Assembly: GCA_040752355.1 (NCBI GenBank)
Contig: JBFMHE010000014.1
Span: 1-64,000 of the forward strand
DNA: 64,000 bases
From: Nitrospirota bacterium
GTDB lineage: Bacteria > Nitrospirota > Thermodesulfovibrionia > Thermodesulfovibrionales > Dissulfurispiraceae
Direction of reading: 5' to 3'
Under the pieces are notes generated by a model. The model had not been told where the DNA came from, searched no databases, and saw only the letters and a program-made list of their open reading frames with translations. The translations under genes and the position numbers were made by a program. Below, in pieces: positions 18,628-62,327 of this stretch (its first letter is position 1; each line of letters opens with the position of its first letter).

Positions 18628-18831
18628 ATGAGTGAACAAGCGATAATAGAAACCGTGCTGAGCTTTTATCCGGCGGTGCAGGCGATTTATCTTTTTGGCA
18701 CCTATCTGACCCCTGATGAGCACAGACTCCAGCGGGCGGTGAGGTTCTGCAATCGCACCGCGAGATACTCGACTCCGACAGAGCTGTACCGCCAGCCCGA
18801 TGACCACCCACGATTTTTTGCGCGACATTAA
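18628..18831 (+). pseudogene. Remnant of an MNT-type nucleotidyltransferase
   Basis: The first 31 or so residues (SEQAIIETVLSFYPAVQAI then YLFGTYLTPDE) match the start of small MNT antitoxin-like nucleotidyltransferases, where AIYLFGS is the strand before the active site. After PDEH the frame has no recognisable sequence: the catalytic DxD is missing and the ORF runs into the next gene. I read it as a 3' truncation next to the transposase. A partner HEPN gene is not seen here. Confidence 0.5.
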
Positions 18832-19573: not shown

Positions 19574-19641
19574 GAGCTGATTGCCGACGGCTGAAGGCTC
19601 GATTTTAGCGTTGGAACCCGGTAATTTGATATAGTAGAAGT

Positions 19642-21453: not shown

Positions 21454-21520
21454 GAACGCCTGCAGCTCATAGTGCTCCTTCGTGGAAAAGAGGGGGACCG
21501 AATGAGTATTATAGTAGTCC

Positions 21521-43205: not shown

Positions 43206-44768
43206 TTACGGCCTTTTACTTCCCGCTGCAGTCTCCCGCCTGCCCGAGAGCCACTGCTTCAGCAGGGTGATGCCCCCGGCAAACAGCGAGCTGCTCTCGG
43301 AGGATATCATTTCATAGAGGTCCTCCTCGATGAGAGTCCGCTCGGGATCGAACAGGGGAACGTCCGGCTTGATCGTCTTCAGCCACTGCTTCTCATCGAA
43401 GACCGAGTCCATGGTGTGGTGCCTAAGACGGCTCTCCGGGTCCGCGGCAAGCGCGTCGAGAAACCCGACGAGGTCTTTCTGCCGGCCAATGATGCCGGCG
43501 CTCATGCCGGTGAGCTCCGCGAGGAGGCTGAACCGGACGCGGCGGATCGAGCGTATGAGATCGTACTCTGCAAGCGACTCCGCCTCCCAGGACACGTTCA
43601 GCTCGACATCGAGCCCCAGACTGCGGTTTGTGGTGTTCGCCGAGCCGACGGTGAGGAAGCGGTCGTCGATGATGAGCAGCTTGGAATGGATGTAGGTCGG
43701 CCTCCCCCGGCTGCCGCCCGGTTCCGATAGCGAATAATAGATGCCCAGGGAGTGCCCTGTCTCGAGGGCGGTCTTCTCGAGGGAGCGGAGGATGCGCGCC
43801 TGTGCCACGCCGACGGCGATCTCCTCGAGAACGTCTTGCGGCCGCCTGGGGAGAAGGATAACGATCTGGAGCTTCGGCCGGGTTGTGCCGGACATCCTGG
43901 CGACGAGCGCTCTATAAACGGCGCAGGAGCTGAGATACTGGTTTTCTATATAGATAAGGTGTTCTGCCGCCGCTATCGCATCGATGAACAGCTGTTTTAT
44001 TTCGGTGATCGAATGGTTCAGCCTCGAAAAGGTGGCGGCCTGGGTGCGGCTGAGCGCTACCGTCTGTTTCGGGATCGGCAGTCCGTACTCAAGCCCGACG
44101 ATCGGTATATCGTCCGTACCGGGGGCGCCGGGAAGGGTCAGCTGATCGCTGGTCGCAAGCTGCCAGCGCGTCCTGAAGAGCCGCTCGATGCGCAGGGCGA
44201 TCGGGCCCCGATGATAGGTCTGGATCTCATGGTAGGGGCCGTAGGCCGCCCCGTCGGGATTGATCCTGTGGGGGTCGTCGGCACGGTGCAGCCTGGTGTC
44301 CCAGCGGCCCGCACAGATGTCCATGCCGCCGATGAAGGCGACGGAGCCGTCGATGACGACAAACTTCTGGTGCTGGCTCGCCCCGACGGGGTGGGTGCCT
44401 TCGAAACGGAAACGGATCCGCTCGCTGGTGGTCCAGTTGAAGATCCACTCCTGGAGCCACTCGCGCTCGAGCATGAAGATGAAGCTGAAGTCCCAGGCGA
44501 GAATATAGATCTCGAGCTCCGGGTTCCGCTCGCACAGATCGTTCAGGAACTCGATGAAGCGGGTGTCGCCGTCGGCCTCGTCGGCATCCTCCCCGCGCAG
44601 CAGCATCGCTTCGCTGTCGAACTGCCAGCCGGAGATGAGGATATAGCGCCGCGCCGCGCGGGCAGCATGATAAAAGGCGCGGTAATAATCATGCCCGTCG
44701 ACGAAGACGCCCGCTTCGGAGACCTCTTCGATGGTCCAGCAGTTTCGGTGGCTGAGTATCCGGTGCAT
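43206..44768 (-). CDS. Phospholipase D-like protein (cardiolipin synthase family)
   Basis: A 520-residue protein with two HKD motifs: HQKFVVIDGSVAFIGG and HSKLLIIDDRFLTVGSAN, each supplying the His, Lys and Asp of a PLD half-site. The family transfers or hydrolyses phosphatidyl groups. No N-terminal membrane helix is seen, unlike E. coli ClsA. It lies in a cluster with an EEP phosphatase and a VTT membrane protein; those three domains occur together, sometimes fused, in other bacteria. Confidence 0.93.
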   Translation of the reverse strand: MHRILSHRNCWTIEEVSEAGVFVDGHDYYRAFYHAARAARRYILISGWQFDSEAMLLRGEDADEADGDTRFIEFLNDLCERNPELEIYILAWDFSFIFMLEREWLQEWIFNWTTSERIRFRFEGTHPVGASQHQKFVVIDGSVAFIGGMDICAGRWDTRLHRADDPHRINPDGAAYGPYHEIQTYHRGPIALRIERLFRTRWQLATSDQLTLPGAPGTDDIPIVGLEYGLPIPKQTVALSRTQAATFSRLNHSITEIKQLFIDAIAAAEHLIYIENQYLSSCAVYRALVARMSGTTRPKLQIVILLPRRPQDVLEEIAVGVAQARILRSLEKTALETGHSLGIYYSLSEPGGSRGRPTYIHSKLLIIDDRFLTVGSANTTNRSLGLDVELNVSWEAESLAEYDLIRSIRRVRFSLLAELTGMSAGIIGRQKDLVGFLDALAADPESRLRHHTMDSVFDEKQWLKTIKPDVPLFDPERTLIEEDLYEMISSESSSLFAGGITLLKQWLSGRRETAAGSKRP

Positions 44769-44903
44769 CGTTCGTACTCCTTGAGCACGGATTCGTCAGA
44801 AGCAACAATCAAGGAGAAGAAATGAACATCGAGGAGCTCCTCCTCTTGCAATGGCGCTCTTTGATGTGTACTCTTCCTTCTTCAGAAGAGCGCGAGACGG
44901 CTT

Positions 44904-45650
44904 CTAGGTGATACGTACGGTGGCGATCAGCGGCAGATGGTCCGAAGCGATCTGCGTTATGCGGGTACGGGGCACCTCGATGCGCTCCACCGTGAACTCG
45001 GGCCCGACGAAGACGTGATCGATACGGGCGAGAGGATAGACGCTCGGGTAAGTCCTGCGGGGACGGCTGCCGTTGAACGAGAGCTGGACGTCCCTCAGCA
45101 TCCTTTTGAAGGTGCGATAGGTCGGCGACAGAGGCAGCGCATTGAAATCGCCGCAGAGAACGAGCGGCGCACAGCACTCGGGGCTCGCAAGCCACTCCTC
45201 GCTCAGCAGCGACCGGGTCTGCGCCATCCGCTCGCGGCGGTCGAGTCCGAGATGGGTATTGATGATATGGATCTCCTTCCCCTCGAGCTCGACACTCGCC
45301 CAGATCGCCCCCCGCTGCTCGAGCGTGCGGCGGCCGTTGAAGGTCGGGAGCGGGCCGGCCTTGATCAAGCTCAGGGGATAGCGGCTCAGGATCGCGTTGC
45401 CGTACTGCTCATCCTCGATCTCGAAGGAGGGATGAAAGTGGAAATCCATCTCGAGGTGCTCCGCGATGACTTTTGCCTGGTGTACCTGGCCGGTGCGGAC
45501 CCTCCCGTTATCGAGCTCCTGGAGCGCAACGACATCGGGCTGATATTGAGCGATGACGTTGGCGATGCGGAAAGGGGAAACTCTGCCGTCCCTGCCGATA
45601 CAGCTGTGGACATTATAGGTCATGATGCTAAAGGTATGTGACGACTTCAT
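44904..45650 (-). CDS. Endonuclease/exonuclease/phosphatase (EEP) family hydrolase
   Basis: A 248-residue EEP-fold enzyme. Metal and catalytic residues: MTYNVHSCIGRDG, the Glu in ALQELDNG, HIINTHLGL, the Asp/Asn in CGDFNALP and the final SDHLPL. Fold members cut nucleic acids, sphingomyelin or inositol phosphates; next to a PLD-like protein a lipid phosphodiesterase role is reasonable. No signal peptide is seen. The gap 45651-45847 holds no gene, only two direct copies of GCACGTGA 16 bases apart. Confidence 0.92.
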   Translation of the reverse strand: MKSSHTFSIMTYNVHSCIGRDGRVSPFRIANVIAQYQPDVVALQELDNGRVRTGQVHQAKVIAEHLEMDFHFHPSFEIEDEQYGNAILSRYPLSLIKAGPLPTFNGRRTLEQRGAIWASVELEGKEIHIINTHLGLDRRERMAQTRSLLSEEWLASPECCAPLVLCGDFNALPLSPTYRTFKRMLRDVQLSFNGSRPRRTYPSVYPLARIDHVFVGPEFTVERIEVPRTRITQIASDHLPLIATVRIT

Positions 45651-45847
45651 TACTGCACAAGAGGGCCTGAGGCCAAAGAACTAATTCTGCCCTTATTATA
45701 CACGAAAAGCACCGTATCCCACAAGAAAACCGGAGCGCTTCGCAGGGCAGTCGCATCACTATGGACACCCTTTCAAAGCACGTGATTGCGGCAGCACGTG
45801 AAGCGGGTTAGACTTAAGTATACGTCACCGCAGGAGCAGAGGCGACT

Positions 45848-46570
45848 ATGGGCAGAGGAAGAACGGGTGAGCGCAGCGGAGCGGTCGGGAGCAGACACGC
45901 GGCAAGGGATATCATCCTCCTCGCGGTGCTGGCAGCGGCGATAGTGTTTCTCCGCCGGTCGGGGCTCGGCGATCACCTGACGTTCGAGAACCTCAAGGAG
46001 AACAGCGCGCTCCTGCTCGCCTTCGTGGAGCGGCATTATCTCCTTGCCGTGGCGGTCTATATAGGACTGTTCATCTCGACTGCCTTTGTCGTTCCCGGAG
46101 CGCTCGTGCTCACGATCGCTGGCGGCTTCCTCTTCGGCGTCATGCCGGGGACGCTCTACACGACCCTCGGGGCGTCGGCAGGCGCGAGCCTCTCCTTTTT
46201 TGCCGCGCGCTATCTCGCGGGGAAGCGGATCCAGCGCCACTACCGCACGCAGCTCGAACGATTCAATGCCGAAATAGACAGAAACGGCTACATTTATCTC
46301 TTCATCATGCGGGTCGTGCCGGTGTTTCCTTTCTTCGTGGTCAATGTCCTCGCGGGCCTGACGAGGATTCCCTACCGGGTCTTCCTGGTGATGACGCTCC
46401 TCGGCATGATCCCCGGCGCAGCCGTCTACTCGTTTGTCGGCAGGCAGCTGAGTACGGTGCATACGGCGGACGACCTCCTCTCGCCCGGCATCATCGCCGC
46501 GCTGGTGCTGCTGGCCCTCTTCACCCTGGCGCCGATCCTCTACCGCCATCGGCGGAGAGCGCGCAGGTAA
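45848..46570 (+). CDS. TVP38/TMEM64 family (VTT) membrane protein
   Basis: A 240-residue polytopic membrane protein of the DedA-related VTT family, implicated in moving lipids between membrane leaflets. Diagnostic motifs: STAFVVPGALVLTIAGGFLF, and RVVPVFPFFVVNVLAG with the re-entrant P-x-x-P and N-x-x-A-G pattern. N- and C-terminal ends are basic. It is divergent from the EEP/PLD pair. Confidence 0.93.
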   Translation: MGRGRTGERSGAVGSRHAARDIILLAVLAAAIVFLRRSGLGDHLTFENLKENSALLLAFVERHYLLAVAVYIGLFISTAFVVPGALVLTIAGGFLFGVMPGTLYTTLGASAGASLSFFAARYLAGKRIQRHYRTQLERFNAEIDRNGYIYLFIMRVVPVFPFFVVNVLAGLTRIPYRVFLVMTLLGMIPGAAVYSFVGRQLSTVHTADDLLSPGIIAALVLLALFTLAPILYRHRRRARR

Positions 46571-46622: not shown

Positions 46623-47396
46623 ATGCCCAAGGCAAATCACCATGGAACAGAGGAGCGCGCCGAGGCCCCGCCGGATATCCGCGGAGGAGAGCGGTGCGTC
46701 ACCGAGGATTTCCTCGCGCATCTGCTCCACGACCTGAAGACGCCGGTGATCACCATCAAGGGCTATGCAAAACGCCTCCAGGAGGAGAAGCTCGGGACGC
46801 TTACCGCGGAGCAGGCCGAAGCGGTAGCGCTGATCACCGAGAGCTGCGACCGCCTCGAACATGACCTGAAGATGATCCTCGAGTACGCGCGGTCCGCATC
46901 GCGGACGGAGATCGAGATCCCGGCCGAACCGTTCGACCTCACGGAAACCATCACCGGCCTCGTCAAGAGCTTCAAGCCCCTTGCGCGGAGGAAGAAGATC
47001 GCCCTCACCGCGGATATGCCGCGTGCTCCCCTCGCCATTCACGCCGACAGGCGCATGCTCGACCGCGCTGTTGCGAATCTCGTCGACAACGCGATAAAGT
47101 TCACCGACCCCGGCGGATGGGTGAAAATATCCCTGTCTGAGAGAGAAGAGGTCGTCGAGGTGCGGGTCAGCGACAGCGGAAAGGGCATGGAAAAGAGCAA
47201 GGTCAACCTCATCTTCAAGCCGTTCGAACAGGTCATCGGCATCGACGACCGGGAGCTCCGCGGCGTGGGACTGGGGCTCGCCAACGTGAAGCGGTATGTC
47301 GAGCTCCATCGGGGTGTGGTAGCGGTGGAGAGCGAGGTCGGCAAGGGGAGTACCTTCATCATCCGGCTTCCGAAGCGGCAGTCCGGCGCTAAGTAA
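46623..47396 (+). CDS. Soluble histidine kinase without sensor domain
   Basis: A 257-residue kinase core: the H-box with phospho-His in LLHDLKTPVITIKGYAKRL, N-box LVDNAIKF, G1 SDSGKGM and G2 GVGLGLANV. No membrane helix or sensor precedes it (only about 28 unrecognised residues), and no response regulator gene lies next to it. It may act as a partner kinase in a larger complex or for a distant regulator. It ends just before the promoter of the glycan operon. Confidence 0.93.
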   Translation: MPKANHHGTEERAEAPPDIRGGERCVTEDFLAHLLHDLKTPVITIKGYAKRLQEEKLGTLTAEQAEAVALITESCDRLEHDLKMILEYARSASRTEIEIPAEPFDLTETITGLVKSFKPLARRKKIALTADMPRAPLAIHADRRMLDRAVANLVDNAIKFTDPGGWVKISLSEREEVVEVRVSDSGKGMEKSKVNLIFKPFEQVIGIDDRELRGVGLGLANVKRYVELHRGVVAVESEVGKGSTFIIRLPKRQSGAK

Positions 47397-47456: not shown

Positions 47457-47714
47457 AGAGACACAGCTCTCTCCGGGGTATCGCGCAGCACTACGGTCCG
47501 CCTTACCCGGTATATCCGCTATCTCTGCGCAGCGGTTCCAGGGAGATAGACACATCATCATTCTTATTAACCGTCGATAGCGAAATTTCTCGCACAGCGC
47601 TGCACCAGGCGACATTTCTTCGCACCCTCATTTCTGCCGCACCCGCCATCTCACGATTGTTTCTGCTGTGGGCAGCCGCAACGGGAAATGCAACTGTACG
47701 GTGAGGAGGATACC
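47457..47714 (+). other. Untranslated leader of the glycan operon
   Basis: About 258 bases between the predicted start and GTG 47715 show no credible ORF and no strong hairpin. It is a long leader for an otherwise tightly packed operon and could host regulation that I cannot see. Confidence 0.4.
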
Positions 47715-48833
47715 GTGAGCAAACACATCTTGATTACGGGAGGCGCAGGCTTTATCGGCTCCCATCTTGCCGATGAGCTGCTCAGGCAGGGCTATCGTGT
47801 TCGCGCGCTCGATAATCTCTCGGTTCAGGTCCACGGGCCCGACTGCACGAGGCCGGAGTATCTCAGTCCCGAGGTGGAGCTGATCGTCGGGGATGTGCGG
47901 GACCCGGAGGCGGTGGCGCGGGCCCTCGACGGCATCGATGCCGTGTACCACTTCGCAGCGGCAGTCGGCGTCGGGCAGAGCATGTACGAGATCGAGAAGT
48001 ATATCGATACGAACAGCAGGGGCACTGCCGTTCTCCTCGAAGCGGCGATCAAGCGGCCCGTGGCGCGGCTGGTCGTCGCCTCGAGTATGAGCGTCTACGG
48101 CGAGGGGCTCTACTGCGCGCCGGACGGTACGGTCTGCAGCGATGCGGGGAGAAGCCTCGGGCAGCTGAAGGAGGGCAGATGGGAGCTGCAGAACCGGAAC
48201 GGCGCTATCCTCGTGCCGGTGCCGACCCCCGAAGCCAAAAAACCCTGTCTCACCTCGGTCTACGCTCTTTCGAAATACGATCAGGAACGCCTCTGCATGA
48301 TGGCGGGCCAGGCGTACGGGATCCCCGTGACGGCGCTCCGCTTCTTCAACGTCTTCGGAACACGCCAGGCCTTTTCGAATCCGTACACCGGGGTGCTCGC
48401 CATCTTCGCCTCACGGCTCCTCAACGGCAGACCGCCGCTCATCTTCGAGGATGGCTACCAGCAGCGCGATTTCGTGAGCGTCTACGATGTCGCGCGCGCC
48501 TGCCGGCAGGCACTGGAAGTCCCCGCCGCAGCGCATAACATCTTCAACATAGGAAGCGGTACTCCCTATACCATCCTCGAAGTCGCCGAGCGCATGGCGG
48601 AGGTCTTCGGGAAACGGCATATCAGGCCGCAGGTCGTCGGAAAATATCGAATGGGAGATATCCGCCACTGTTTTGCCGATATCTCCCGTGCCCGCGAAGT
48701 CCTGCATTACGAACCCTGCGTCACCTTCGACGAGGGTCTGCTCGAGCTGAGCGAGTGGATCGAGGGCAAGGTCGCCTTCGACCGGGTCGAAGAGGCGAGT
48801 GCGGAGCTGGCCGGGCGGGGGTTGACGGTATGA
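47715..48833 (+). CDS. NAD-dependent sugar-nucleotide epimerase/dehydratase
   Basis: A 372-residue extended SDR enzyme: Rossmann motif ITGGAGFIGSHLADELL, catalytic SSMSVYGEG and YALSKYDQERL (Tyr-x3-Lys), and the substrate motif RFFNVFGTRQAFSNPYTGV. It acts on a nucleotide sugar, probably a 4-epimerase or related step. GTG 47715 follows GAGGAGG and is preferred over ATG 47688. A 40-residue insert around residues 120-160 is longer than in GalE. First gene of the operon, overlapping the next by four bases. Confidence 0.92.
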   Translation: MSKHILITGGAGFIGSHLADELLRQGYRVRALDNLSVQVHGPDCTRPEYLSPEVELIVGDVRDPEAVARALDGIDAVYHFAAAVGVGQSMYEIEKYIDTNSRGTAVLLEAAIKRPVARLVVASSMSVYGEGLYCAPDGTVCSDAGRSLGQLKEGRWELQNRNGAILVPVPTPEAKKPCLTSVYALSKYDQERLCMMAGQAYGIPVTALRFFNVFGTRQAFSNPYTGVLAIFASRLLNGRPPLIFEDGYQQRDFVSVYDVARACRQALEVPAAAHNIFNIGSGTPYTILEVAERMAEVFGKRHIRPQVVGKYRMGDIRHCFADISRAREVLHYEPCVTFDEGLLELSEWIEGKVAFDRVEEASAELAGRGLTV

Positions 48834-50944
48834 GCGAAGTGCGTTATCTCACGACCAGGATGCGGGACCGGCTCGCGAAGTCGGTGAGGGTGCAGAGCCC
48901 GCAGGCGACGCCGTCCCGGCGCGCGGGACCGGTCATCGGCATGAGCGAAACGTTCCGCACCGGCGCCTGCGACGAGGTCGAGCAGGTGTTGCATGATCTC
49001 AAAGCGCTCGGCGTCACCGAGCTCCGGGCGCCGGTCTCCTGGGCTCACTGGCAGACGCCCGCGGGAGAAGAGTGGTATAACTGGCTCATCCCCCGCCTGA
49101 CTCAGGAAGTGCAAGTCCTTCCCTGTCTTGTCCAGACGCCCCCCTCCCTGGGGGTGCTTCCGAAAACATCCGCCCCTCCCCGTGACCCCAGGTCATTTGC
49201 CGACTTCGTCGAGGCGTTCCTTACCCGCTTCGATAAGTTCCTGGAGTATGTGGAGCTCTGGAACGAGCCGGATAAAGTATACAACTGGGACTGGCGGCTC
49301 GACCCCGAATGGCGCATCTTCTCCGAGATGATCGGCAGCGCCGCGTACCGGGCCCAGCAGTACGGGAAGAAGGCCGTCCTGGGGGCGACCTGTCCTACCG
49401 ACCCGCACTGGCTCCGCCTGCTCTGCGAGCGCGGTATCCTTTCCTATATCGATGTCGTGGGATTTCACGGTTTTCCGGGCACGTGGGAGTTCGACTGGGA
49501 CGAGTGGTCGTTCAAGGTGTCAGAGCTGCGCGATGTCCTGGACACCTACAGTCTCGACAAAGAGCTCTGGATTACCGAGACCGGCTTCTCCACCTGGAAG
49601 CATGACGAGCTCGGACAGCTGAGGGAGTTCATCAAGGCGGCCGAGGCACCGGCAGCGCGCGTCTACTGGGCGTCGGTCCGGGACCTCCCTCCCGACCTTC
49701 CCGGCCCCGAGGGCATGCATACCGATGAGCGGTGCTATCACCTCGGGCTGCGGCAGAGCGACGGGAGACCGAAGCTGCTCTTCCGGCTCTGGCAGAGCGG
49801 CGGGATCGATGCGGTGCGCGAGACGTTCCGGCTCACGCTCCCCCCCGTGCCTGCGCCTGAGCACCGGCTGCAGCCGGTGCTCATTATCGGCGGCGCAGGC
49901 TTCATCGGGACCAACCTCGCCCACCGCCTGCTCGCGACAGAGCAGCCGGTGCTCATCTACGATAACCTTTCCCGGCCGGGCGTCGAGCGGAACCTGCGCT
50001 GGCTGCGGGAGGCGCACGGCGACCTCGTCCGGGTCGAGATCGCGGACATCTGCAACCGCGCAGCCCTCCGGGAAGCGCTGCGCGGAGCCCGGCAGGTCTT
50101 TCACTTCGGCGCACAGGTAGCGGTGACGACGAGCCTCGTCAATCCCGATTATGACTTTACGGTCAATGTCTGCGGCACGATGAACCTCCTCGAAGAGCTC
50201 CGCAGACTCGAGAGCCCTCCTCCCCTGGTCTTCACCTCGACCAACAAAGTCTACGGGGGACTCGAAGATATCTATTTGCGGAAGTACGGCGCACGGTACG
50301 AGCCGATCGATTTCCTGACCAGGCTCTCCGGCATCAACGAGCGGTGCATGCTCGATTTCCAGAGCCCCTACGGCTGCTCCAAGGGCACGGCCGACCAATA
50401 TATACTCGATTATGCCCGCACCTACGGGATCCCGGCGACGGTCTTCAGGATGAGCTGCATCTACGGCCCCCACCAACTCGGCACCGAGGACCAGGGGTGG
50501 GTGGCGCACTTCCTGATCAGCGCCATCAAGGGCAGGCCGATCACCATTTACGGTGACGGGATGCAGGTCCGGGATGTGCTGTATGTCGAGGACCTCGTCG
50601 ACGCCCTGCTGATCGCCCAGGCGAATATCCGGCTCCTCTCCGGCCAGGCCTTCAACATCGGCGGCGGACCGGCGAACACGCTGAGCCTCCTCGAGCTGGT
50701 CGAGATGGTCGCCGGCCTGCACGGCGCGCGGCCGGAGGTGCACTTCGACGAGTGGCGCCACGGCGACCAGCGCTATTACGTCTCCGACGCGCGGAAGTTC
50801 AAGACCATGACCGGCTGGACCCCGCGGACGAGCGTACACCAGGGCGTCGCGAAGCTGTACGAGTGGCTGACGCTCTTGCGCGCCTCCTCCCCGATCCTCT
50901 TACAGGAGAAAGAGCCGCATGAAGTACTCATTGATCAATCCTGA
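48830..50944 (+). CDS. Fusion: clan-A glycosidase-like barrel + CDP-tyvelose-epimerase-like SDR
   Basis: A 704-residue two-domain protein. Residues 35-325 look like a GH5/GH39-type TIM barrel with acid/base Glu146 in VELWNEPD and nucleophile Glu250 in WITETGFSTW. Residues 350-690 form an NAD-binding SDR (GGAGFIGTNLAHRLL) with FTSTNKVYGG, SPYGCSKGTADQY and MSCIYGPHQLGTEDQ, closest to CDP-paratose/tyvelose 2-epimerases. There is no signal peptide, so the barrel is cytosolic and may trim or transfer a lipid-linked sugar rather than degrade polymer. ATG 48830 overlaps the upstream stop. Confidence 0.9.
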   Translation: MSEVRYLTTRMRDRLAKSVRVQSPQATPSRRAGPVIGMSETFRTGACDEVEQVLHDLKALGVTELRAPVSWAHWQTPAGEEWYNWLIPRLTQEVQVLPCLVQTPPSLGVLPKTSAPPRDPRSFADFVEAFLTRFDKFLEYVELWNEPDKVYNWDWRLDPEWRIFSEMIGSAAYRAQQYGKKAVLGATCPTDPHWLRLLCERGILSYIDVVGFHGFPGTWEFDWDEWSFKVSELRDVLDTYSLDKELWITETGFSTWKHDELGQLREFIKAAEAPAARVYWASVRDLPPDLPGPEGMHTDERCYHLGLRQSDGRPKLLFRLWQSGGIDAVRETFRLTLPPVPAPEHRLQPVLIIGGAGFIGTNLAHRLLATEQPVLIYDNLSRPGVERNLRWLREAHGDLVRVEIADICNRAALREALRGARQVFHFGAQVAVTTSLVNPDYDFTVNVCGTMNLLEELRRLESPPPLVFTSTNKVYGGLEDIYLRKYGARYEPIDFLTRLSGINERCMLDFQSPYGCSKGTADQYILDYARTYGIPATVFRMSCIYGPHQLGTEDQGWVAHFLISAIKGRPITIYGDGMQVRDVLYVEDLVDALLIAQANIRLLSGQAFNIGGGPANTLSLLELVEMVAGLHGARPEVHFDEWRHGDQRYYVSDARKFKTMTGWTPRTSVHQGVAKLYEWLTLLRASSPILLQEKEPHEVLIDQS

Positions 50945-52220
50945 CTGGACCTTCGGCGGCAGCATCTACTTCGGATGCCGCGAGCCGCACCTCCCCCTCG
51001 AATACGGGTATGCGAAGGCGCTCCTGGAGCGCGTGGGACACGACGTGCTCCTTATCGACGGGCATAGGGATGGTCTCCCGGCGCAGGCGATTGCGCAGCA
51101 GACGCATGCCTTTGCCCCGGATATCATCGTCATTACCACGGCGCCGAGCTATCTCTTCTGGCGTTGCGCGCCCCCGGAGCTCCGTGCGCCCCTGGAGATC
51201 GTGCGGGCAGTGCGCGAGAGCGGGGCGCTTACCGTTGCCGTGGGGCCGCACGGCTCTACAACGCCCGAAGCGGTGATGAAAAAGCTGGGCGTCGACAGGG
51301 TGATACGGGGAGAGCCCGAAGAGGTGCTCCCTCTCCTGGCGCAGGACCCGGGAAGAGGGAAGACTATCCCCTCGGTCTTCTGGCGGGAGGAGGGGGGCGC
51401 AGGAAGAAGAGGAACGCCGCACGAAAGCGACATGGCTGCGCTGCCGGCGCTGCGGTGGCCCCGGGAGGTCCTCGCCCGGCGCCGGCACCACCACCACCGC
51501 TTCGACTGCGCGCCCGGGCAGACGGGTGCACCGGGCGCCGAGGTCGAGAGCTCGCGGGGATGCCCTTACAGCTGCTCCTTCTGCGCCCGGGAGACCTTCC
51601 GGGGCCGGTATCGCAGGCGTCCCGTGCCGGTCGTGCTCGAAGAGATCGACGACCTCGTGAGCAAGGGCGTGAGCTACCTCTACTTCATCGACGAGCTGTT
51701 CATGCCCGACAGCGCGCTGCTCGCTGCAGTGGGGGAACGGGATGTCGCCTTCGGCATCCAGACGAGGATCGACCTCTGGACCCCGGAGCTGCTGGAGCGG
51801 CTCGGCGCCGCGGGCTGCGTCTCGATAGAGGCCGGCATCGAGAGCGCGAGCGAGGCGGCGCGCCTCGCCCTCGGCAAGCGGTGTATGAAGACGAACAGCG
51901 AGCTGATCGATCTCCTGAAGTGCGCGCGCGACCATGTGCCGTTCGTTCAGGCGACCCTGCTCGCCTCGGATGCCGACGATCCGGCGCTGACTGCAGAATG
52001 GCGCGACCTCCTCCTCCGCTCCAACGTATGGACCAATGAGCCCGTGCCCCTCTTTCCCTATCCCGGGTCGCAGGAATATGCAAAGCGCTGGGGGCCTCCG
52101 GATGAGTATGCGTGGGAGCGGGCGCACGGCTGCTACCTGCAGCAGCACAGCGCCTTCAGCGATATCCAGGAAGAGCGGCCGCTTCCCCTCGCCCGGCTCG
52201 AAGCAGGCGGGGGGCGATGA
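50919..52220 (+). CDS. B12-binding radical SAM protein
   Basis: A 433-residue protein with an N-terminal cobalamin-binding Rossmann region (LEYGYAKALLERVGHDVLLI, lacking the usual DxHxxG His ligand) and a radical SAM barrel with cluster motif SRGCPYSCSFCARETF. Such enzymes often methylate or rearrange unactivated carbons. I believe it corresponds to TIGR04295 ('rhizo-twelve system'), recalled from memory. It overlaps the upstream fusion gene by 26 bases and the next gene by four. A run of five His with Arg/His neighbours near residue 190 is unusual. Confidence 0.9.
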   Translation: MKYSLINPDWTFGGSIYFGCREPHLPLEYGYAKALLERVGHDVLLIDGHRDGLPAQAIAQQTHAFAPDIIVITTAPSYLFWRCAPPELRAPLEIVRAVRESGALTVAVGPHGSTTPEAVMKKLGVDRVIRGEPEEVLPLLAQDPGRGKTIPSVFWREEGGAGRRGTPHESDMAALPALRWPREVLARRRHHHHRFDCAPGQTGAPGAEVESSRGCPYSCSFCARETFRGRYRRRPVPVVLEEIDDLVSKGVSYLYFIDELFMPDSALLAAVGERDVAFGIQTRIDLWTPELLERLGAAGCVSIEAGIESASEAARLALGKRCMKTNSELIDLLKCARDHVPFVQATLLASDADDPALTAEWRDLLLRSNVWTNEPVPLFPYPGSQEYAKRWGPPDEYAWERAHGCYLQQHSAFSDIQEERPLPLARLEAGGGR

Positions 52221-53365
52221 GCAGGGCGATGAGGCGGCATCCCAAGCGTATTCTCATGACCGCCGATACCCTGGGCGGCGTATGGACCTACGCCGTCGAG
52301 CTCGCGCATGTCCTCTGGAAGCACGATATCGAGGTGGTCCTCGCAACCATGGGCGCCCCCCTGTCGGCGCAGCAGCGCGCCGACCTTCGCCAGATCCCCG
52401 GCGCCGAGCTTCATGAGAGCACGTTCAAGCTCGAGTGGATGGAGCACCCGTGGGACGATGTCGCCCGCGCCGGAGAGTGGCTGCTCAGGCTCGAAGAAGA
52501 GCTCGAGCCCGATATCGTCCATCTCAACGGGTATGCGCACGGGGCTCTCCCCTGGAAAGCGCCCCGGCTCGTCGTGGGGCACTCCTGCGTCCTTTCGTGG
52601 TGGGAGGCGGTCCTGAAAGAGCCGGCTCCCCCGGAGTGGAAGCGGTACCGTCATGAGGTCAAGCGCGGCATCGCTGCAGCCGACGCCGTCGTCGTCCCGA
52701 CTGCGTCGATGCGCGATGCGCTCGCACGCCACTACCATAGCGACATCGCCTGCAGCATTATCCCGAACGGACGGAATACCGAACTGTTTGCGCCGGGGAT
52801 CAAAGAGGCGCTCGTCCTTACGGCGGGAAGGCTCTGGGACAGGGCGAAGAACGTGGCAGCGCTCATGGAGAGCGCGCCGCTCCTCTCCTGGCCGCTCTAT
52901 ATCGCCGGCGAGGAGTGCCCCCCGTCCGGGGGCGGCGACACCGCGGCAGGGCGCCATAGCGCGGTCCGCCGCCTCGGCCGGCTCCCGGCAAGCGGGATCG
53001 CCTCGTGGATGTCGCGAGCTTCTCTCTATGCATTTCCTGCCTACTACGAACCCTTCGGACTTTCGGTGCTCGAGGCAGGGCTGTCCGGGTGCGCGCTGGT
53101 GCTCGGCGACATCCCGAGCCTCCGCGAGCTCTGGCACGATGCGGCGCTTTTCGTTTCACCCGACGACACCTCTATGATACGGGAGGCGATCGAGACACTC
53201 ATCCGCAATGCGGCATACCGGCAGGAGATGGCGGAACGTGCACGGGTGAGGGCCCAGGAGTTCACGCCCCGGCGCATGGCAGCGGGCTATCTCGCGGTGT
53301 ACGAACGTATGGTGCAGTCGGCTGCGGCGCCGGCCTCCGAGACGGAGGGGCAATGCGTATCGTGA
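52217..53365 (+). CDS. GT4-family glycosyltransferase
   Basis: A 382-residue GT-B enzyme. The N-terminal donor/acceptor fold begins ILMTADTLGGVWTYAVELA; the C-terminal domain holds TAGRLWDRAKN and the GT4 signature FPAYYEPFGLSVLEAGLSGC with the E-x7-E pair. It transfers sugar from an activated nucleotide, retaining type. ATG 52217 overlaps the previous stop as ATGA. Confidence 0.93.
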   Translation: MSRAMRRHPKRILMTADTLGGVWTYAVELAHVLWKHDIEVVLATMGAPLSAQQRADLRQIPGAELHESTFKLEWMEHPWDDVARAGEWLLRLEEELEPDIVHLNGYAHGALPWKAPRLVVGHSCVLSWWEAVLKEPAPPEWKRYRHEVKRGIAAADAVVVPTASMRDALARHYHSDIACSIIPNGRNTELFAPGIKEALVLTAGRLWDRAKNVAALMESAPLLSWPLYIAGEECPPSGGGDTAAGRHSAVRRLGRLPASGIASWMSRASLYAFPAYYEPFGLSVLEAGLSGCALVLGDIPSLRELWHDAALFVSPDDTSMIREAIETLIRNAAYRQEMAERARVRAQEFTPRRMAAGYLAVYERMVQSAAAPASETEGQCVS

Positions 53366-54465
53366 TGTTCTATCACTCGCTCCTCTCGGACTGGAACCAC
53401 GGCAATGCGCATTTTCTGCGCGGCATCGCCTCGGAGCTCCTGTCGCGCGGGCATACGGTGGCGGTGTACGAGCCCCGGAACGGCTGGAGTCTCTCGAACC
53501 TCCTCGAAGAGCACGGCACCGCGCCGCTCCGTGAGTTCCGCGGGGCCTATCCCCATCTCACGAGCATACGCTACCGCCGCGAGACGCTCGATCTCGACCG
53601 TGCGCTCGACCGCGCCGACCTGGTCATCGTGCATGAATGGAACGATCACGACCTGGTGCGGCGCATCGGGGAGTACCGGAGCCGGGCAGGCGGCCTTACC
53701 CTCCTCTTTCATGATACCCACCACCGCTCGGTGACGGCGCCGGAGCTGATGGCGGCCTATGACCTGTCGCACTACGACGGCGTGCTCGCCTTCGGCGAGG
53801 TCGTCCGCACGATCTATCTCTCGCGCGGCTGGACGCAGCGGGCATGGGTCTGGCACGAGGCTGCGGATACCAGGATATTCTACCCCGACAGCGCTCGCGG
53901 AGAAGAAGGGTGCGAGGGCGACCTCGTCTGGATCGGGAACTGGGGCGATGAAGAGCGGACCGCGGAGCTGCAGGAGTTCCTGCTCGGGCCGGTGAAGCGA
54001 CTCGGGCTGAAGACGCGCATGCACGGCGTGCGCTATCCCCGGCATGCGCGGGACATGATCGCCGGCGCAGGGATCGAATACCGCGGGTGGCTCCCGAATT
54101 ACAGGGTACCGCGGGTCTTTGCGCGTTTCAGGCTCACGCTCCATGTGATCCGGCGTCCCTATGTGCAGGCGCTGCCCGGGATCCCGACGATCCGTCCCTT
54201 CGAGGCGCTCGCCTGCGGCATCCCCCTGATATGCGCGCCCTGGGAAGATGCGGAGGGCCTGTTTACTCCGGGCGAGGACTTTCTCGTTGCGCGCAACGGC
54301 AACGAGATGCTGCGCCATATGAAGACCCTGCTGCGGGACGCCGAGATGTCCCGCGCGCTTGCGGAGCACGGATACCGGACGGTCGTCAGCCGCCACACCT
54401 GCGCTCACCGCGTGGATGAGCTGCTCGCTGTTTGCCGGGAGCTCAGGGGAGTGAATCCGGAATGA
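53353..54465 (+). CDS. CgeB-type glycosyltransferase (first of four)
   Basis: A 370-residue GT-B protein of the CgeB/DUF3880 kind. It starts MRIVMFYHSLLSDWNHGNAH, has the family's central SxD-type repeat region (DLVWIGNWGDEERTAELQ) and the C-terminal block RPFEALACGIPLICAPWEDA with the acidic sugar-nucleotide site. It overlaps the upstream gene by 13 bases. Substrates unknown. Confidence 0.9.
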   Translation: MRIVMFYHSLLSDWNHGNAHFLRGIASELLSRGHTVAVYEPRNGWSLSNLLEEHGTAPLREFRGAYPHLTSIRYRRETLDLDRALDRADLVIVHEWNDHDLVRRIGEYRSRAGGLTLLFHDTHHRSVTAPELMAAYDLSHYDGVLAFGEVVRTIYLSRGWTQRAWVWHEAADTRIFYPDSARGEEGCEGDLVWIGNWGDEERTAELQEFLLGPVKRLGLKTRMHGVRYPRHARDMIAGAGIEYRGWLPNYRVPRVFARFRLTLHVIRRPYVQALPGIPTIRPFEALACGIPLICAPWEDAEGLFTPGEDFLVARNGNEMLRHMKTLLRDAEMSRALAEHGYRTVVSRHTCAHRVDELLAVCRELRGVNPE

Positions 54466-54479
54466 AAGGACAGCACCGT

Positions 54480-55565
54480 ATGCGCATCGCCTTTTTCGGT
54501 TCGAGTCTCGTCTCGGCCTACTGGAACGGGGCGGCGACCTATTACCGCGGCATTATCCGCGAGCTCCACCGGCTGGACTACCGGATCACCTTCTATGAGC
54601 CGGATGCTTACGGGCGGCAGCAGCACCGCGATATCGTCGATCCCCCCTGGGCCCGTGTCGTCGTCTACGCAGCCGACGACGAGGGCCTCGCCGCTGCCCT
54701 CGACGACGCGCGTCATGCCGACCTCATCGTCAAGGCGAGCGGCGTCGGCGTCTTCGATGAAGCGCTCGAAGCAGCGGTCCTCCAGATAAAGCGGCCCGGC
54801 GCAGCGGCTGCCTTCTGGGATGTGGACGCCCCCGCGACCCTCGACCGCGTTCAGCAGAGTCCGGACGATGCCTTCCGCGCGCTCGTCCCCCGCTACGACT
54901 TCATCTTTACCTATGGAGGCGGCGACCCGGTGGTGACGGCGTATACGTTGCTGGGGGCGCGGCATTGCATCCCTATCTATAATGCCCTCGACCCCGCGAC
55001 CCACTACCCCGTCGCCCTCGATACGCGGTTCAGCGGCGACCTCGGCTTCATCGGCAACCGCCTCCCCGACCGGGAGGCGCGGGTGAAGGAGTTCTTCATC
55101 GATGTCGCGCGCCGGCTGCCCCGCTGCCGTTTTCTCCTGGGCGGCAACGGGTGGGAGCCACCGCTCCCCGGGAATATCACGTATCTCGGGCATGTCTATA
55201 CGCATGAGCACAACGCATTCAACAGCACGCCGCGGGCGGTGCTCAACATCAACAGGGAGAGCATGGCCCGGTACGGATTCTCCCCGCCGACCCGCGTCTT
55301 CGAGGCTGCCGGCGCCGGCGCCTGCCTGATTACCGATGCCTGGGAGGGCATCGAGCTCTTCCTCGAGCCGGGGCGCGAGGTCCTCGTCGCCCGGAGCGGG
55401 GAGGAGGTCGCCGAGCAGCTCCTCTCGCTTACCGTCGACCGCGCCGCCGGGATCGGTGAGGCGGCGCTCAAGCGTATCACTGCAGAGCATACCTATGCCC
55501 ACCGGGCGAGGCAGCTGCATGCCGTGCTCGATGCCCCTGCAGGTCGTGCAGGAGGGTGTGCATGA
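54480..55565 (+). CDS. CgeB-type glycosyltransferase (second of four)
   Basis: A 361-residue relative of its neighbours: start MRIAFFGSSLVSAYWNGAAT, central LGFIGNRLPDREARVKEFF, and C-terminal PTRVFEAAGAGACLITDAWE followed by the E-GREVLVAR block. ATG 54480 has AAAGGA upstream; ATG 54462 (ATGA overlap) would add six residues. Same family as genes at 53353, 55562 and 58795 but clearly divergent. Confidence 0.9.
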   Translation: MRIAFFGSSLVSAYWNGAATYYRGIIRELHRLDYRITFYEPDAYGRQQHRDIVDPPWARVVVYAADDEGLAAALDDARHADLIVKASGVGVFDEALEAAVLQIKRPGAAAAFWDVDAPATLDRVQQSPDDAFRALVPRYDFIFTYGGGDPVVTAYTLLGARHCIPIYNALDPATHYPVALDTRFSGDLGFIGNRLPDREARVKEFFIDVARRLPRCRFLLGGNGWEPPLPGNITYLGHVYTHEHNAFNSTPRAVLNINRESMARYGFSPPTRVFEAAGAGACLITDAWEGIELFLEPGREVLVARSGEEVAEQLLSLTVDRAAGIGEAALKRITAEHTYAHRARQLHAVLDAPAGRAGGCA

Positions 55566-56644
55566 GCTCCCGGCAACTGACTATCGTCATGCTCGGGCTG
55601 TCGATCACCTCCTCCTGGGGCAACGGACATGCGACGACCTACCGGGGGCTCGTCCGGGGGCTGGTGGAGCGGGGGCATACGGTGCTGTTCCTCGAGCGCG
55701 AGGTGCCGTGGTATGCGGACAACCGCGACCTTCCCAAACCGCCCTATTGCCGCACGGAGATATATCTCAGCCTGACGGATCTGAAAAAGCGCTTTGCGGC
55801 CGAGGTGCGGGAGGCGGATGCGGTGATCGTCGGCTCGTACGTGCCCGAAGGCATAGCGGTCGGGGAATGGGTCACCGCAACCGCACGGGGCATTACCGCC
55901 TTCTATGACATCGATACCCCGGTGACCATGGCGAAGCTGGAGTACGGAGATGCCGCCTACCTTTCGGCATCCCTGATCCCGCGCTACCGCCTGTATCTCT
56001 CGTTTACCGGGGGGCCCCTGCTCGACGGCATCGAAAAGCGCTACGGCTCTCCCCTGGCCCGGCCGCTCTACTGCTCGGTCGACCCCGAGCTGTACTTCTT
56101 CCGGGAGGCCGGGAAGCGGTGGGATATCGGGTATCTCGGCACCTACAGCGACGACCGCCAGCCGCTCCTCGACCGGCTGCTGCTCGAGCCGGCGCGCCGG
56201 AGCGAGCGCTGCCGGTATGTCGTGGCCGGGCCGCAGTATCCCGAGAGCATCGTATGGCCGTACAACGTGGAGCGCATCGTGCACCTGAACCCCGCGGAGC
56301 ACTGCGCGTTCTATAACGGCCAGCGCTTCACGCTGAATATCACCAGGGCCGATATGGTGCGCGCCGGCTACTCGCCCAGCGTGCGGCTCTTCGAGGCAGC
56401 GGCCTGCGCTACCCCCATTATCAGTGATTACTGGGAAGGACTGGAACAGTTCCTGGAGCCCGGGAAGGAGATCCTCGTCTCCCGTTCACCCGAGGACACG
56501 CTGCAGTACCTCCACGATATTGCCGAGCAGGACCGCCTCGCCCTCGGTGCGCGGGCCCGGGAGCGCGTCCTTTCCCAGCACACGGCGGCGCATCGCGCAG
56601 CCGAGCTGGAGGGCTATATAGCGGAAGTGATCTCCGGGAGCTGA
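55562..56644 (+). CDS. CgeB-type glycosyltransferase (third of four)
   Basis: A 360-residue enzyme with N-terminal GLSITSSWGNGHATTYRGLV, central YLGTYSDDRQPLLDRLLLEP and C-terminal SVRLFEAAACATPIISDYWE. It is the closest paralogue of the enzyme at 58795; both share the SSWGNGHAT and TYxDDRQ blocks. ATG 55562 overlaps the upstream stop and follows GGAGG. It ends the first block of transferases before the SRPBCC-dehydrogenase pair. Confidence 0.92.
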   Translation: MSSRQLTIVMLGLSITSSWGNGHATTYRGLVRGLVERGHTVLFLEREVPWYADNRDLPKPPYCRTEIYLSLTDLKKRFAAEVREADAVIVGSYVPEGIAVGEWVTATARGITAFYDIDTPVTMAKLEYGDAAYLSASLIPRYRLYLSFTGGPLLDGIEKRYGSPLARPLYCSVDPELYFFREAGKRWDIGYLGTYSDDRQPLLDRLLLEPARRSERCRYVVAGPQYPESIVWPYNVERIVHLNPAEHCAFYNGQRFTLNITRADMVRAGYSPSVRLFEAAACATPIISDYWEGLEQFLEPGKEILVSRSPEDTLQYLHDIAEQDRLALGARARERVLSQHTAAHRAAELEGYIAEVISGS

Positions 56645-58794: not shown

Positions 58795-59913
58795 ATGAAA
58801 CTGGTCATCTTCGGACTCACGATAAGCTCTTCCTGGGGAAACGGGCATGCGACGCTCTGGCGCGGGCTCTGCCGCGCATTGGTGCGGCGGGGGCACCGGG
58901 TCGTCTTTTTCGAGCGGGACGTCCCCTACTATGCGCACCACCGCGACCTCATCGAGCTCTCCGGCGTGACGCTCTGCTTCTACCAGAGCTGGTCCGCGGT
59001 GCTGCCTGTTGCCCGGGAGCAGCTTGCCGATGCCGATGCCGGCATGGTGACCTCCTACTGTCCCGACGGGGTCGCCGCGTCGGAACTGGTAGGATGCTCG
59101 CCGGTGAGACTGCGTACGTTCTACGACATGGATACCCCGGTGACTCTGGAGCGCGTACGCGGGGGCCAGCCGGTCTCCTATATCGGCCCCCGCGGCCTCC
59201 GGGACTTCGACCTGGTGCTGAGCTACACCGGAGGGAAGGCGCTGGAGGAGCTCCGGACGCTCCTGGGCGCACCCCGTGTCGCGCCGCTTTACGGGAGCGT
59301 CGATCCCTCGACGCACTACCCCGTGCCGTCCGTCGACGCCTACCGGGCCGACCTCTCCTATCTGGGGACGTACGCCGACGACCGCCAGCGGATGCTCCAG
59401 GCGCTGCTGGTCGAGACCTCCCGGAGGCTCCCCCGGCGGCGCTTTCTCATCGGCGGCTCCCTCTACCCGGAATCGTTTCCGTGGGGGGAGAATATCTGCT
59501 ACATCCCTCACGTGCCGCCGCCGGAGCATCCCTCCTTCTTCTGCTCCTCGACCTTTACGCTGAATGTCACCCGCGGGGCGATGGCGGAGATGGGGTACTG
59601 TCCGTCGGGCCGTCTCTTCGAGGCAGCGGCCTGCGCAGCGCCGCTGATCAGCGACTGCTGGGAGGGCCTCGAGCAGTTCTTCTCGATCGGCGCCGAGATC
59701 GCCATTGCACGGACGACGGAGGAGGTGATGGCTGCGCTCGAGATGTCTCCTGACCGGATCGCCCGGATCGGCCGGGCTGCGCAGGAGCGCGTGCTGGCCG
59801 AGCACACGGCCGACCAGCGCGTCCGCGACCTCGAGCGGGCGCTGGACGCCGCAGGACATGCGCTTGCGGAGTTCGGCGCATACCGGTACTACCCTTCAAC
59901 CGCGGAGGATTAG
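58795..59913 (+). CDS. CgeB-type glycosyltransferase (fourth of four)
   Basis: A 372-residue paralogue of the protein at 55562: IFGLTISSSWGNGHATLWRG, then RTFYDMDTPVTLERV, YLGTYADDRQRMLQALLVET and SGRLFEAAACAAPLISDCWE. Conservation of the FYDxDTPVT block in both proteins marks a shared subfamily, presumably acting on related acceptors. Two bases separate it from the nucleotidyltransferase gene. Confidence 0.92.
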   Translation: MKLVIFGLTISSSWGNGHATLWRGLCRALVRRGHRVVFFERDVPYYAHHRDLIELSGVTLCFYQSWSAVLPVAREQLADADAGMVTSYCPDGVAASELVGCSPVRLRTFYDMDTPVTLERVRGGQPVSYIGPRGLRDFDLVLSYTGGKALEELRTLLGAPRVAPLYGSVDPSTHYPVPSVDAYRADLSYLGTYADDRQRMLQALLVETSRRLPRRRFLIGGSLYPESFPWGENICYIPHVPPPEHPSFFCSSTFTLNVTRGAMAEMGYCPSGRLFEAAACAAPLISDCWEGLEQFFSIGAEIAIARTTEEVMAALEMSPDRIARIGRAAQERVLAEHTADQRVRDLERALDAAGHALAEFGAYRYYPSTAED

Positions 59914-59915
59914 GT

Positions 59916-60641
59916 ATGTGGGGAATCATTCCCGCCGCAGGCGTCGGCAGCAGGATACAGCCGCTCGCCTTCTCGAAGGAGCTGCTCCCGGTGGGCAGCC
60001 GGCTCGACCAGGGAGTCGAACGGCCCCGCGCGGTCAGCGAGTATCTCGTCGACCGGATGATCGCGGGCGGTGCGACAAAGATATGCTTCATTATCGCTCC
60101 GGGCAAATCGGATATCCTGGAATACTACGAGGGCAATGTGAGCTCAGCACACGTCTGCTATACCGTACAGCCCCGTCCCGCCGGACTCTGCGACGCCATC
60201 TTCCGCGTTCTTCCGCTGATCCATCCCGACGAACAGGTGATCGTGGGACTGCCGGACACCATCTGGTTTCCCGAAGAGGGGTTCCGCCTTCTCGATGACG
60301 CGGCCCTCTCGTTCCTCCTGTTTCCGGTCGAGCACCCCGAGCTCTTCGATGCGGTCGTCACCGATGACAGGGGCGCCGTCCGCGAGATACAGGTGAAGCA
60401 GCCCCGGCCCGCCACCTCATGGATATGGGGAGGGTTCAAGCTCTCCGGGGCGGTCTTGCGCGGCCTCTTTGCGCTCTGGTCCGAGCGGGACCGCAGTGAC
60501 GAGTATATCGGCACGCTCGTCAACGCCTACCTGGCGCGCGGCGGTGAGGCCCGGGGCGTGAAGGGCGGGCAGTCCTATGTGGACGTGGGGACCCTCAACG
60601 GCTACCGTGAAGCGATCAAACTGCTCAGTGCGCGAACATGA
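59916..60641 (+). CDS. Sugar-1-phosphate nucleotidyltransferase (RmlA-like)
   Basis: A 241-residue NTP transferase: nucleotide loop IIPAAGVGSRIQPLAFSKEL with the activating Lys, VIVGLPDTIWFPEEG in place of the usual GDN/D metal motif, and a C-terminal YVDVGTLNGYREA. It should make an NDP-sugar for the surrounding transferases. At the second metal site the common Gly-Asp is replaced, so the preferred sugar may be unusual. Confidence 0.9.
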   Translation: MWGIIPAAGVGSRIQPLAFSKELLPVGSRLDQGVERPRAVSEYLVDRMIAGGATKICFIIAPGKSDILEYYEGNVSSAHVCYTVQPRPAGLCDAIFRVLPLIHPDEQVIVGLPDTIWFPEEGFRLLDDAALSFLLFPVEHPELFDAVVTDDRGAVREIQVKQPRPATSWIWGGFKLSGAVLRGLFALWSERDRSDEYIGTLVNAYLARGGEARGVKGGQSYVDVGTLNGYREAIKLLSART

Positions 60642-61447
60642 ACCTTTCTCAGGAGCAAAAGGAGATGCTCTCTATGACGTATCATTCCTCAGTTCCGTCT
60701 TCAGTCCCGCCGGACCGGCTCACCCCTGACGAGATCAGGAGGAGAGTGGCCGAGCTCGGTCCGTGGTTCCATAACCTCAAGCTGCGCGGCATCGAGACCG
60801 CTCCCGATCACTTCCTCGGCGACTACCCTGAAGTCAAATGGCGCCACTTCGCCCATGCCGTCCCTGCCGACCTGCAGGGGAAGTCGGTGCTCGACATCGG
60901 CTGCAACGCCGGGTTCTACGCCATCGAGATGAAGCGGCGCGGCGCCGGACAGGTGGTGGGCATCGATTCGGATGCGGATTATCTTGCACAGGCGCGCTTC
61001 GCCGCCGCTGTCCACGGGATGGAGATCGAGTTTCAACAGCTCTCGGTATACGAAGTGGCGCGGCTGGGCAGGAGCTTCGATATCGTCCTCTTCATGGGGG
61101 TGCTCTATCACCTCCGCCACCCGCTCTTCGCCCTCGACCTCCTCCACCGCCATGTGGTCAGGGACCTGCTCATCTTTCAATCCATGCTGCGGGGCAGCGA
61201 CGAGGTCGCTGCCATCGAAGACGACTACTCCTTCAGCGAGCGCTGCATATTCGAAGACCCTTCGTTTCCCCGGATGCATTTCATAGAGCGCAAGTACTCG
61301 GGGGATCCCACGAACTGGTGGCTCCCGAACCGCGCCTGCGTCGAGGCGATGCTCCGCAGCGCCTCGTTCGAGATCATCGACCACCCCGAAGAGGAGGTCT
61401 ACATCTGCCGGTCCTTGGAAAGAAAGGAGGGGGGCATCGATGATTGA
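60638..61447 (+). CDS. CmoB-like SAM-dependent methyltransferase (TIGR04290-like)
   Basis: A 269-residue methyltransferase: FHNLKLRGIETAPDHFLGDY as a pre-motif, SAM-binding SVLDIGCNAGFYAIEMKRRG, GIDSDADYL and VLFMGVLYHLRHPLFALDLL. The layout matches CmoB-type enzymes, but genome context points to a sugar or lipid substrate rather than tRNA. I recall TIGR04290 as the family linked to the rhizo-twelve cluster. It overlaps both neighbours (ATGA upstream, eight bases downstream). Confidence 0.9.
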   Translation: MNLSQEQKEMLSMTYHSSVPSSVPPDRLTPDEIRRRVAELGPWFHNLKLRGIETAPDHFLGDYPEVKWRHFAHAVPADLQGKSVLDIGCNAGFYAIEMKRRGAGQVVGIDSDADYLAQARFAAAVHGMEIEFQQLSVYEVARLGRSFDIVLFMGVLYHLRHPLFALDLLHRHVVRDLLIFQSMLRGSDEVAAIEDDYSFSERCIFEDPSFPRMHFIERKYSGDPTNWWLPNRACVEAMLRSASFEIIDHPEEEVYICRSLERKEGGIDD

Positions 61448-62327
61448 GGCCGTCATGCTCTGGAACGAGCCGAACAACCTGTCCCATTGGGACTTTCATA
61501 TCGACGCCGAGTGGAACCTGTATGCCGGGATGGTGAAGAGCGCCGCCGCCGCCGTCGCAGCCGAGAACCCGCGCCTCCTGCGCGTGCTGGGCGGCATCTC
61601 CCCCATCGATCCCAATTTCGTCGCCAACATGAAGAGCAAGGGCGTGCTCGACCACGTCGAGGTGGTCGCTGTCCACGGGTTCCCTCTCGACTGGAACCAC
61701 TGGACCATCCATGAATGGCCGGACAAGCTCGGAGAGATACAGGCGGTCACCGACCTGCCGGTCTGGGTGTCGGAGGCGGGGGTCTCGACCTTCGGCGCCG
61801 AGGAGGTGCAGGAGTTCGGGCTGAGGCGCACTGCCGAGCTGCTCCGGGGGCGGGCCGGGCGCATCCACTGGTACAGCCTGTACGACCTGCCGAGGGCGTG
61901 GCCCGCCACGACACGCCACCGCGAGGCCGAAGGGTCGTCGTACTACCGCCATTTTTACATGGGGCTGCTCCGTGAGGACGGCTCTCCCAAGCTCGCACTT
62001 CCCTCTTTTCCCGCGTACACGCCGGAGCTCGGCATCTGCCAGTGGTTTCATTTCGAGGACCACCGCCTCGACGACGCCGTGCGATGGCTCAAGAGACTGG
62101 GAGTGAGCTACCTGCGGACCGGCCTCAGCTGGGCGGACAGCCTCCGCCCGGATGCCGATGCATGGTTCGACCGGCAGATGAAGGCGCTCGAGGGATTCAG
62201 CGTGACGCTCACCTTCTGCTTTACGCCCGAGTCCCGCGGCATTACTCCCCACCACACCAGCCCGCCCCGCCGGCCCGAGGAGTTTGCGGAGTTCTGCGCG
62301 CGGATGGTGCGCCGCTATGCAGCATAG
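61440..62327 (+). CDS. Circularly permuted clan-A glycosidase-like protein
   Basis: A 295-residue protein whose two halves match the barrel at 48830 in reversed order. Residues 1-190 start directly at the fourth strand with acid/base Glu10 (AVMLWNEPN) and nucleophile Glu112 (VWVSEAGVSTF). Residues 195-295 (WLKRLGVSYLRTGLSWA, then TFCFTPESRG and EFAEFCARMVRRY) correspond to strands one to three. Both catalytic Glu are kept. I recall database entries called beta-xylosidase of similar layout. Eight-base overlap with the methyltransferase gene sets the start. Confidence 0.85.
   Translation: MIEAVMLWNEPNNLSHWDFHIDAEWNLYAGMVKSAAAAVAAENPRLLRVLGGISPIDPNFVANMKSKGVLDHVEVVAVHGFPLDWNHWTIHEWPDKLGEIQAVTDLPVWVSEAGVSTFGAEEVQEFGLRRTAELLRGRAGRIHWYSLYDLPRAWPATTRHREAEGSSYYRHFYMGLLREDGSPKLALPSFPAYTPELGICQWFHFEDHRLDDAVRWLKRLGVSYLRTGLSWADSLRPDADAWFDRQMKALEGFSVTLTFCFTPESRGITPHHTSPPRRPEEFAEFCARMVRRYAA

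Follow-up and report, generated by a model that had tools for sequence, protein, structure and literature searches.

Why a glycan-synthesis cluster should need a glycosidase is a puzzle already stated in work on PslG of Pseudomonas aeruginosa, and it is raised again by a 64,000-nucleotide stretch of a Nitrospirota genome (hereafter the window), in which one gene joins a glycosidase-like barrel to a CDP-tyvelose-type epimerase. The initial annotation regarded the product as a cytosolic fusion that processes a nucleotide- or lipid-linked sugar, or as a transglycosidase that feeds the epimerase on the same chain. The question is what the glycosidase does in such a cluster, and whether it has to share a chain with the epimerase.

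The fused gene encodes a single cytosolic polypeptide

The fused gene (48830-50944, on the forward strand, as are all the cluster features given below) is a single uninterrupted frame of 704 codons, enclosed in a stop-free stretch of 801 codons. Modelled in full length with AlphaFold2 (mean pLDDT 89, pTM 0.86), the protein consists of an N-terminal barrel and a C-terminal extended SDR. The gene start overlaps the stop codon of the upstream SDR gene (SDR1) in an ATGA, and the 3' end overlaps a TIGR04295 radical SAM gene by 26 nt, so that the fused gene belongs to a tightly packed operon.

A survey of the conservation of the fusion retrieved 80 relatives from named genomes, every one of them with both domains in one frame; the genomes span the Cyanobacteria, Armatimonadota, Acidobacteria, Verrucomicrobia, Bacteroidota, relatives of Geobacter, Alpha- and Gammaproteobacteria and Myxococcota, in addition to an actinobacterial MAG. 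Together with the 801-codon stop-free stretch, this excludes an assembly artefact or the frame error near position 49880 that the initial annotation had named as a refutation. As the 80 relatives are the best full-length matches to the fused query, the fusion is real, and either old or mobile, and a constant fusion of the two domains is not implied. A hydrophobic N-terminal segment is present neither in the window protein nor in any of the 80 relatives (best 17-residue Kyte-Doolittle mean ≤0.93); secretion of the fused protein is rejected, in agreement with the cytosolic protein without a signal peptide proposed at the outset.

The fused barrel resembles PslG

The barrel domain (residues 34-340; 48929-49849) is probably a retaining clan-A glycosidase of PslG/GH39-like type, as judged from its profile and its model. 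In the AlphaFold2 model, eight strands (residues 35-39, 64-70, 95-101, 140-143, 181-184, 209-214, 245-251 and 277-281) form a (β/α)8 barrel with pLDDT mostly >90. Glu146 follows strand 4 and is preceded by Asn145, and Glu250 sits at the end of strand 7, an arrangement characteristic of clan A; both residues are found where the initial annotation placed them, in the motifs LWNEP and WITETG. A profile built from 32 barrels has PslG as its best solved relative (E 4.5e-4), followed by GH1 and GH39 enzymes. The profile alignment pairs Glu146 (codon 49265-49267) and Glu250 (codon 49577-49579) with positions 139 and 250 of the PslG chain, which an offset of 26 converts to E165 and E276, both reported to be crucial to the activity of PslG (PMC9075953). 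Glu146 and Glu250 are the predicted acid/base and nucleophile, respectively. The window protein keeps the two, as do 73 of the 81 proteins in the alignment; one more is truncated at Glu146.

The glycosidase half is unnamed in the annotations seen: a Pfam scan of the window barrel gave no match, and the plasmid records mention only an epimerase. This absence extends to the GH39 family (PF01229), which only one of the 32 relatives touches (E 0.43), whereas three of the 32 match PF11790 (Glyco_hydro_cc; best 2e-4). In the fold search with the full model, SDRs took up the results, so that the barrel part received no comparison.

PslG (PDB 5bx9 and 4zn2) is the nearest working analogy for a glycosidase in a glycan cluster. 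It shares with the fused barrel the clan-A fold, the NEP and TE motifs and the equivalent glutamates, and is likewise encoded within a glycan biosynthesis cluster (Psl), where its activity is needed for the normal exopolysaccharide product (PMC9075953). However, the similarity is at the profile level only (E 4.5e-4) and PslG lacks a fused epimerase. Moreover, most PslG resides at the inner membrane and some in the periplasm; the window protein, in contrast, has no export signal.

The C-terminal domain is a TyvE-type epimerase

The C-terminal SDR domain (SDR2, residues 349-681; 49874-50872) matches CDP-tyvelose 2-epimerase at E ~1e-81 by sequence, and the fold search aligned it to the Salmonella enzyme (PDB 1orr) with a Z-score of 44.8 over 327 residues, at 1.5 Å and 40% identity, which bears out the initial assignment of this half. 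The GGxGFxG motif (GGAGFIG) and T471, Y514 and K518, the latter two in a YxxxK motif, are those of an extended SDR. In addition, T471-N472-K473, Y514, K518 and Q555 correspond to T124, N125, K126, Y164, K168 and Q205 of TaTyvE from Thermodesulfatator atlanticus (PDB 9rl0; PMC13098431). All six residues are invariant in an alignment of 49 sequences. SDR2 thus has in common with the solved enzymes the catalytic triad, the TNK motif and the Gln205 equivalent, but the VAM segment of TyvE reads VAV, and the solved TyvE proteins stand alone whereas SDR2 bears an N-terminal barrel. Given the sequence and structural match and the kept residue set, the best-supported activity is NAD-dependent epimerisation of some nucleotide sugar at C-2.

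Gal10-type proteins, in which UDP-galactose 4-epimerase is fused to a mutarotase, offer a parallel. Similar to the window protein, they combine a nucleotide-sugar SDR epimerase with a second carbohydrate-active domain; however, the partner there is an aldose 1-epimerase instead of a (β/α)8 glycosidase barrel, and the domain order is reversed.

Gene cluster around the fused gene

The gene directly before the fused one, both in the window and in most relatives, is SDR1 (47688-48833), which encodes a GalE/LegB-like nucleotide-sugar SDR. Downstream follow the B12-binding radical SAM protein (TIGR04295, 50919-52220; 613 bits against a cutoff of 400), a GT4 glycosyltransferase (GT4a, 52217-53365) and three PF13524 glycosyltransferases (GTb, 53353-54465; GTc, 54465-55565; GTd, 55556-56644), then an SRPBCC-like protein, a zinc dehydrogenase and a further PF13524 glycosyltransferase (GTe, 58795-59913). 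The order continues with a sugar-phosphate nucleotidyltransferase-like protein (59916-60641), a TIGR04290 methyltransferase (60638-61447; 392 bits, cutoff 300), a second barrel whose start the methyltransferase gene overlaps, and a GT4-type glycosyltransferase (GT4f, 62284-63408). GT4a to GTd were assigned from domain matches and synteny and GTe from its domain match, and GT4f adjoins the second barrel in genomes of the window's taxonomic order.

The order SDR1-[barrel+SDR2]-(radical SAM)-GT4a-GTb-GTc-GTd is kept across phyla among the fused relatives, most of which have the TIGR04290 methyltransferase nearby, and in one close relative the whole cluster set is collinear with the window. The scanned cluster proteins included no recognisable polymerase or flippase, in a scan not aimed specifically at transporters, and the same proteins yielded no CDP-glucose cytidylyltransferase. 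The gene content and the lack of a recognised polymerase or flippase suggest that a methylated oligosaccharide or glycoconjugate is synthesised in the cytosol. The nucleotide-sugar and glycan context of the initial interpretation stands.

The same cluster, fused gene included, is carried by plasmid p42b of Rhizobium etli CFN 42 (12856-22233); a literature search found no paper connecting this gene to the plasmid-b LPS loci. Literature searches on TIGR04295 and TIGR04290 found no paper, and those on TyvE fusions and on the CgeB/radical-SAM cluster gave nothing relevant. In the window, genes resembling phospholipase D, endonuclease/exonuclease/phosphatase and DedA/VTT proteins are adjacent at 43206-46570, with a histidine-kinase-like gene (46623-47396) downstream of them, all identified by eye.

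A circularly permuted second barrel

The more interesting part of the locus, absent from the initial annotation, is the second barrel (61440-62327). Searching with the fused protein matched 61434-62318 as two blocks in swapped order, and blastp gave the same picture. The encoded protein of 295 residues stands alone and belongs to the same family; it begins with strand 4 (MIEAVMLWNEP) and ends past the helix after strand 3, so that strands 4-8 precede strands 1-3. The cut lies just before strand 4, which puts the acid/base strand first. In global alignment to the fused barrel the sequence scores 102 as it stands and 372 after rotation by 192 residues, compared to ≤-3 for shuffled controls, and the model shows a barrel whose eight strands follow the permuted order (mean pLDDT 86). 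With homologous blocks swapped over the whole domain and a barrel in the model, the protein is, as judged from both, a circular permutant of the fused barrel; its strand order also sets it apart from PslG. Glu10 (61467-61469) and Glu112 (61773-61775) are the equivalents of Glu146 and Glu250.

Relatives of the permutant occur across phyla at 65-86% identity to the window copy; all 53 loci encode it at full length with the identical permutation, and N9, E10 and E112 are kept in every copy. Some records name it β-xylosidase. The fold search with the permutant model returned many unrelated TIM barrels (Z 12-14) with no clan-A family ahead, a result to be expected of a sequential aligner given a permuted barrel, and one that does not speak against clan-A membership. 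Four genomes of the window's taxonomic order carry the permutant without a fused barrel. As a side observation, loci L312-L315, from that taxonomic order, hold the sub-cluster (GTe)-NTP-MT-permuted barrel-GT4f-GNAT, with the SDR1/SDR2 part absent nearby.

Natural circular permutation of a TIM-barrel glycosidase is known from GH70 versus GH13, which are clan-H α-glucan enzymes. The permutant resembles this pair in the natural permutation of a catalytic (β/α)8 barrel, but differs in that a clan-A fold is cut just before strand 4. Literature searches on circular permutation in clan GH-A found no paper, and those on circularly permuted glycosidases nothing relevant. The locus provides a clear natural case of a clan-A barrel whose circular permutation is linked to loss of the unpermuted copy.

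Fused and permuted barrels have a complementary distribution

One or both catalytic glutamates are lost in 13 of 87 fused proteins (K/E, R/A, Q/Q, E/A, G/E, E/G, A/A and E/S), requiring at least six changes of state on the tree. The SDR signature is intact except in one protein (L177, with TRK and F for Y), another (L011) being cut by the contig end. In other genomes the fused barrel is missing altogether. Sinorhizobium meliloti pSymB has the order SDR1-SDR2-GT4a-GTb-GTc with an SDR2 of 373 residues and no barrel; a permutant with 76% identity lies ~7 kb away.

In 269 Rhizobiales genomes, SDR2-type matches occur in 26 and are strong (>480 bits) in 22; a barrel match of whatever kind occurs in these same 22 genomes and in none of the others. 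SDR2 is unfused in 18 of the 22, all 18 of which have the permutant. Among the four fused cases, G1203 and G1268 lack the permutant and are both E/E, and G401 has both barrels intact. The fourth, G1231, appears caught mid-decay: its fused barrel carries E146G and a deletion after strand 4 and has lost conserved loops, whereas an intact permutant lies elsewhere in the genome; its sister on the SDR2 tree, G1194, has no fused barrel.

In the Myxococcales, SDR2 is present in 41 of 145 genomes; five are fused, all without the nucleophile, and the permutant accompanies 25 of the 41, compared to two of the 104 genomes without SDR2. Both barrel forms are lacking in nine genomes with a strong SDR2, and in three more the sole barrel is a decayed fused one, so that either the pathway can do without a live barrel or its place is taken by another glycosidase. 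A first association, in which six of seven decayed barrels came with a permutant, weakened once the Myxococcales were added. Both barrels are intact in twelve genomes, the window included.

On the SDR2 tree, with outgroup and duplicates removed before counting, the permutant accompanies 12 of 76 epimerases with an intact fused barrel, nine of the 13 with a decayed one and 39 of the 45 without a barrel (Fisher p ~3e-15), in a pooled table biased by the gathering of the intact-fused set through similarity to the fused query. Since relatives on a tree are not independent, we also compared pairs of tips on non-overlapping paths, drawn 300 times: of 14 such pairs, 10 on average support the association, none opposes it and four are tied (sign test p ~0.002). 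These pairs and the even Rhizobiales sample reduce the sampling bias but do not remove it. The tree itself has uneven node supports, one permutant (G745) is a partial match, and gene absence in draft genomes (G019, L033) is uncertain.

Proposed roles of the two barrels

We lean towards a reading in which epimerase and glycosidase catalyse separate steps of one cytosolic glycan pathway, with the glycosidase suppliable in cis or in trans. The SDR half would make one nucleotide sugar of the glycan, and the N-terminal barrel would hydrolyse (or transfer) a glycosidic bond in a cytosolic intermediate; its substrate would be the product of the cluster's glycosyltransferases, and its role most likely the trimming or release of an intermediate. 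The permutant may perform the same hydrolysis in trans, and where it is present the fused barrel would tend to decay or be deleted. We consider it probable that this has happened repeatedly, the permuted clan-A glycosidase taking the place of the fused domain, with dead-fused/live-permutant intermediates surviving. Neither both activities on one chain nor direct hand-over between active sites would be needed. Weighing against this reading are the Myxococcales with a strong SDR2 and no live barrel, the twelve genomes in which both barrels are intact, and the four genomes of the window's taxonomic order that have the permutant but lack the fused form.

The tight coupling of the initial annotation, in which the barrel channels its product directly to the fused epimerase, now seems quite improbable. 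Retention of the fusion over many phyla and the confident two-domain model (pTM 0.86) speak for it, but the epimerase occurs without a barrel in S. meliloti and in most of the sampled SDR2-carrying Myxococcales and Rhizobiales, the fused barrel loses its glutamates while the SDR motif persists, and the SDR2 tree requires at least 12 changes between the fused and the barrel-less state. Besides, the permutant, with its glutamate pair always kept, is usually present where the fused barrel is decayed or missing. The same glutamate losses, double Q/Q changes included, could mean that the barrel serves chiefly to bind sugar or as a structural element, its chemistry being irrelevant, especially as the other pocket residues R66, W71, W144, W247, T255, Q263, W280 and D285 are kept despite them. 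We doubt this reading, as the pair is kept in the large majority of fused barrels and in all permutants, and its loss is associated with an intact permutant, which suggests that the property under selection is catalysis.

It is likewise unlikely that the permutant has an unrelated job, for example one connected with the TIGR04290 methyltransferase, and is found alongside SDR2 only because modules of the cluster travel together. The methyltransferase does lie ≤1.5 kb from the permutant in 30 of 53 loci, and the two are also found in loci without SDR2 nearby. However, co-travel does not predict a permutant specifically where the fused barrel is decayed or missing, and none of the 14 independent pairs opposes the replacement of the fused barrel by the permutant. 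The two apparently interchangeable barrel forms and the natural catalytically dead versions provide a ready comparative and genetic test in strains that are tractable in the laboratory, with R. etli CFN 42 carrying the cis (fused) form and S. meliloti the trans form.
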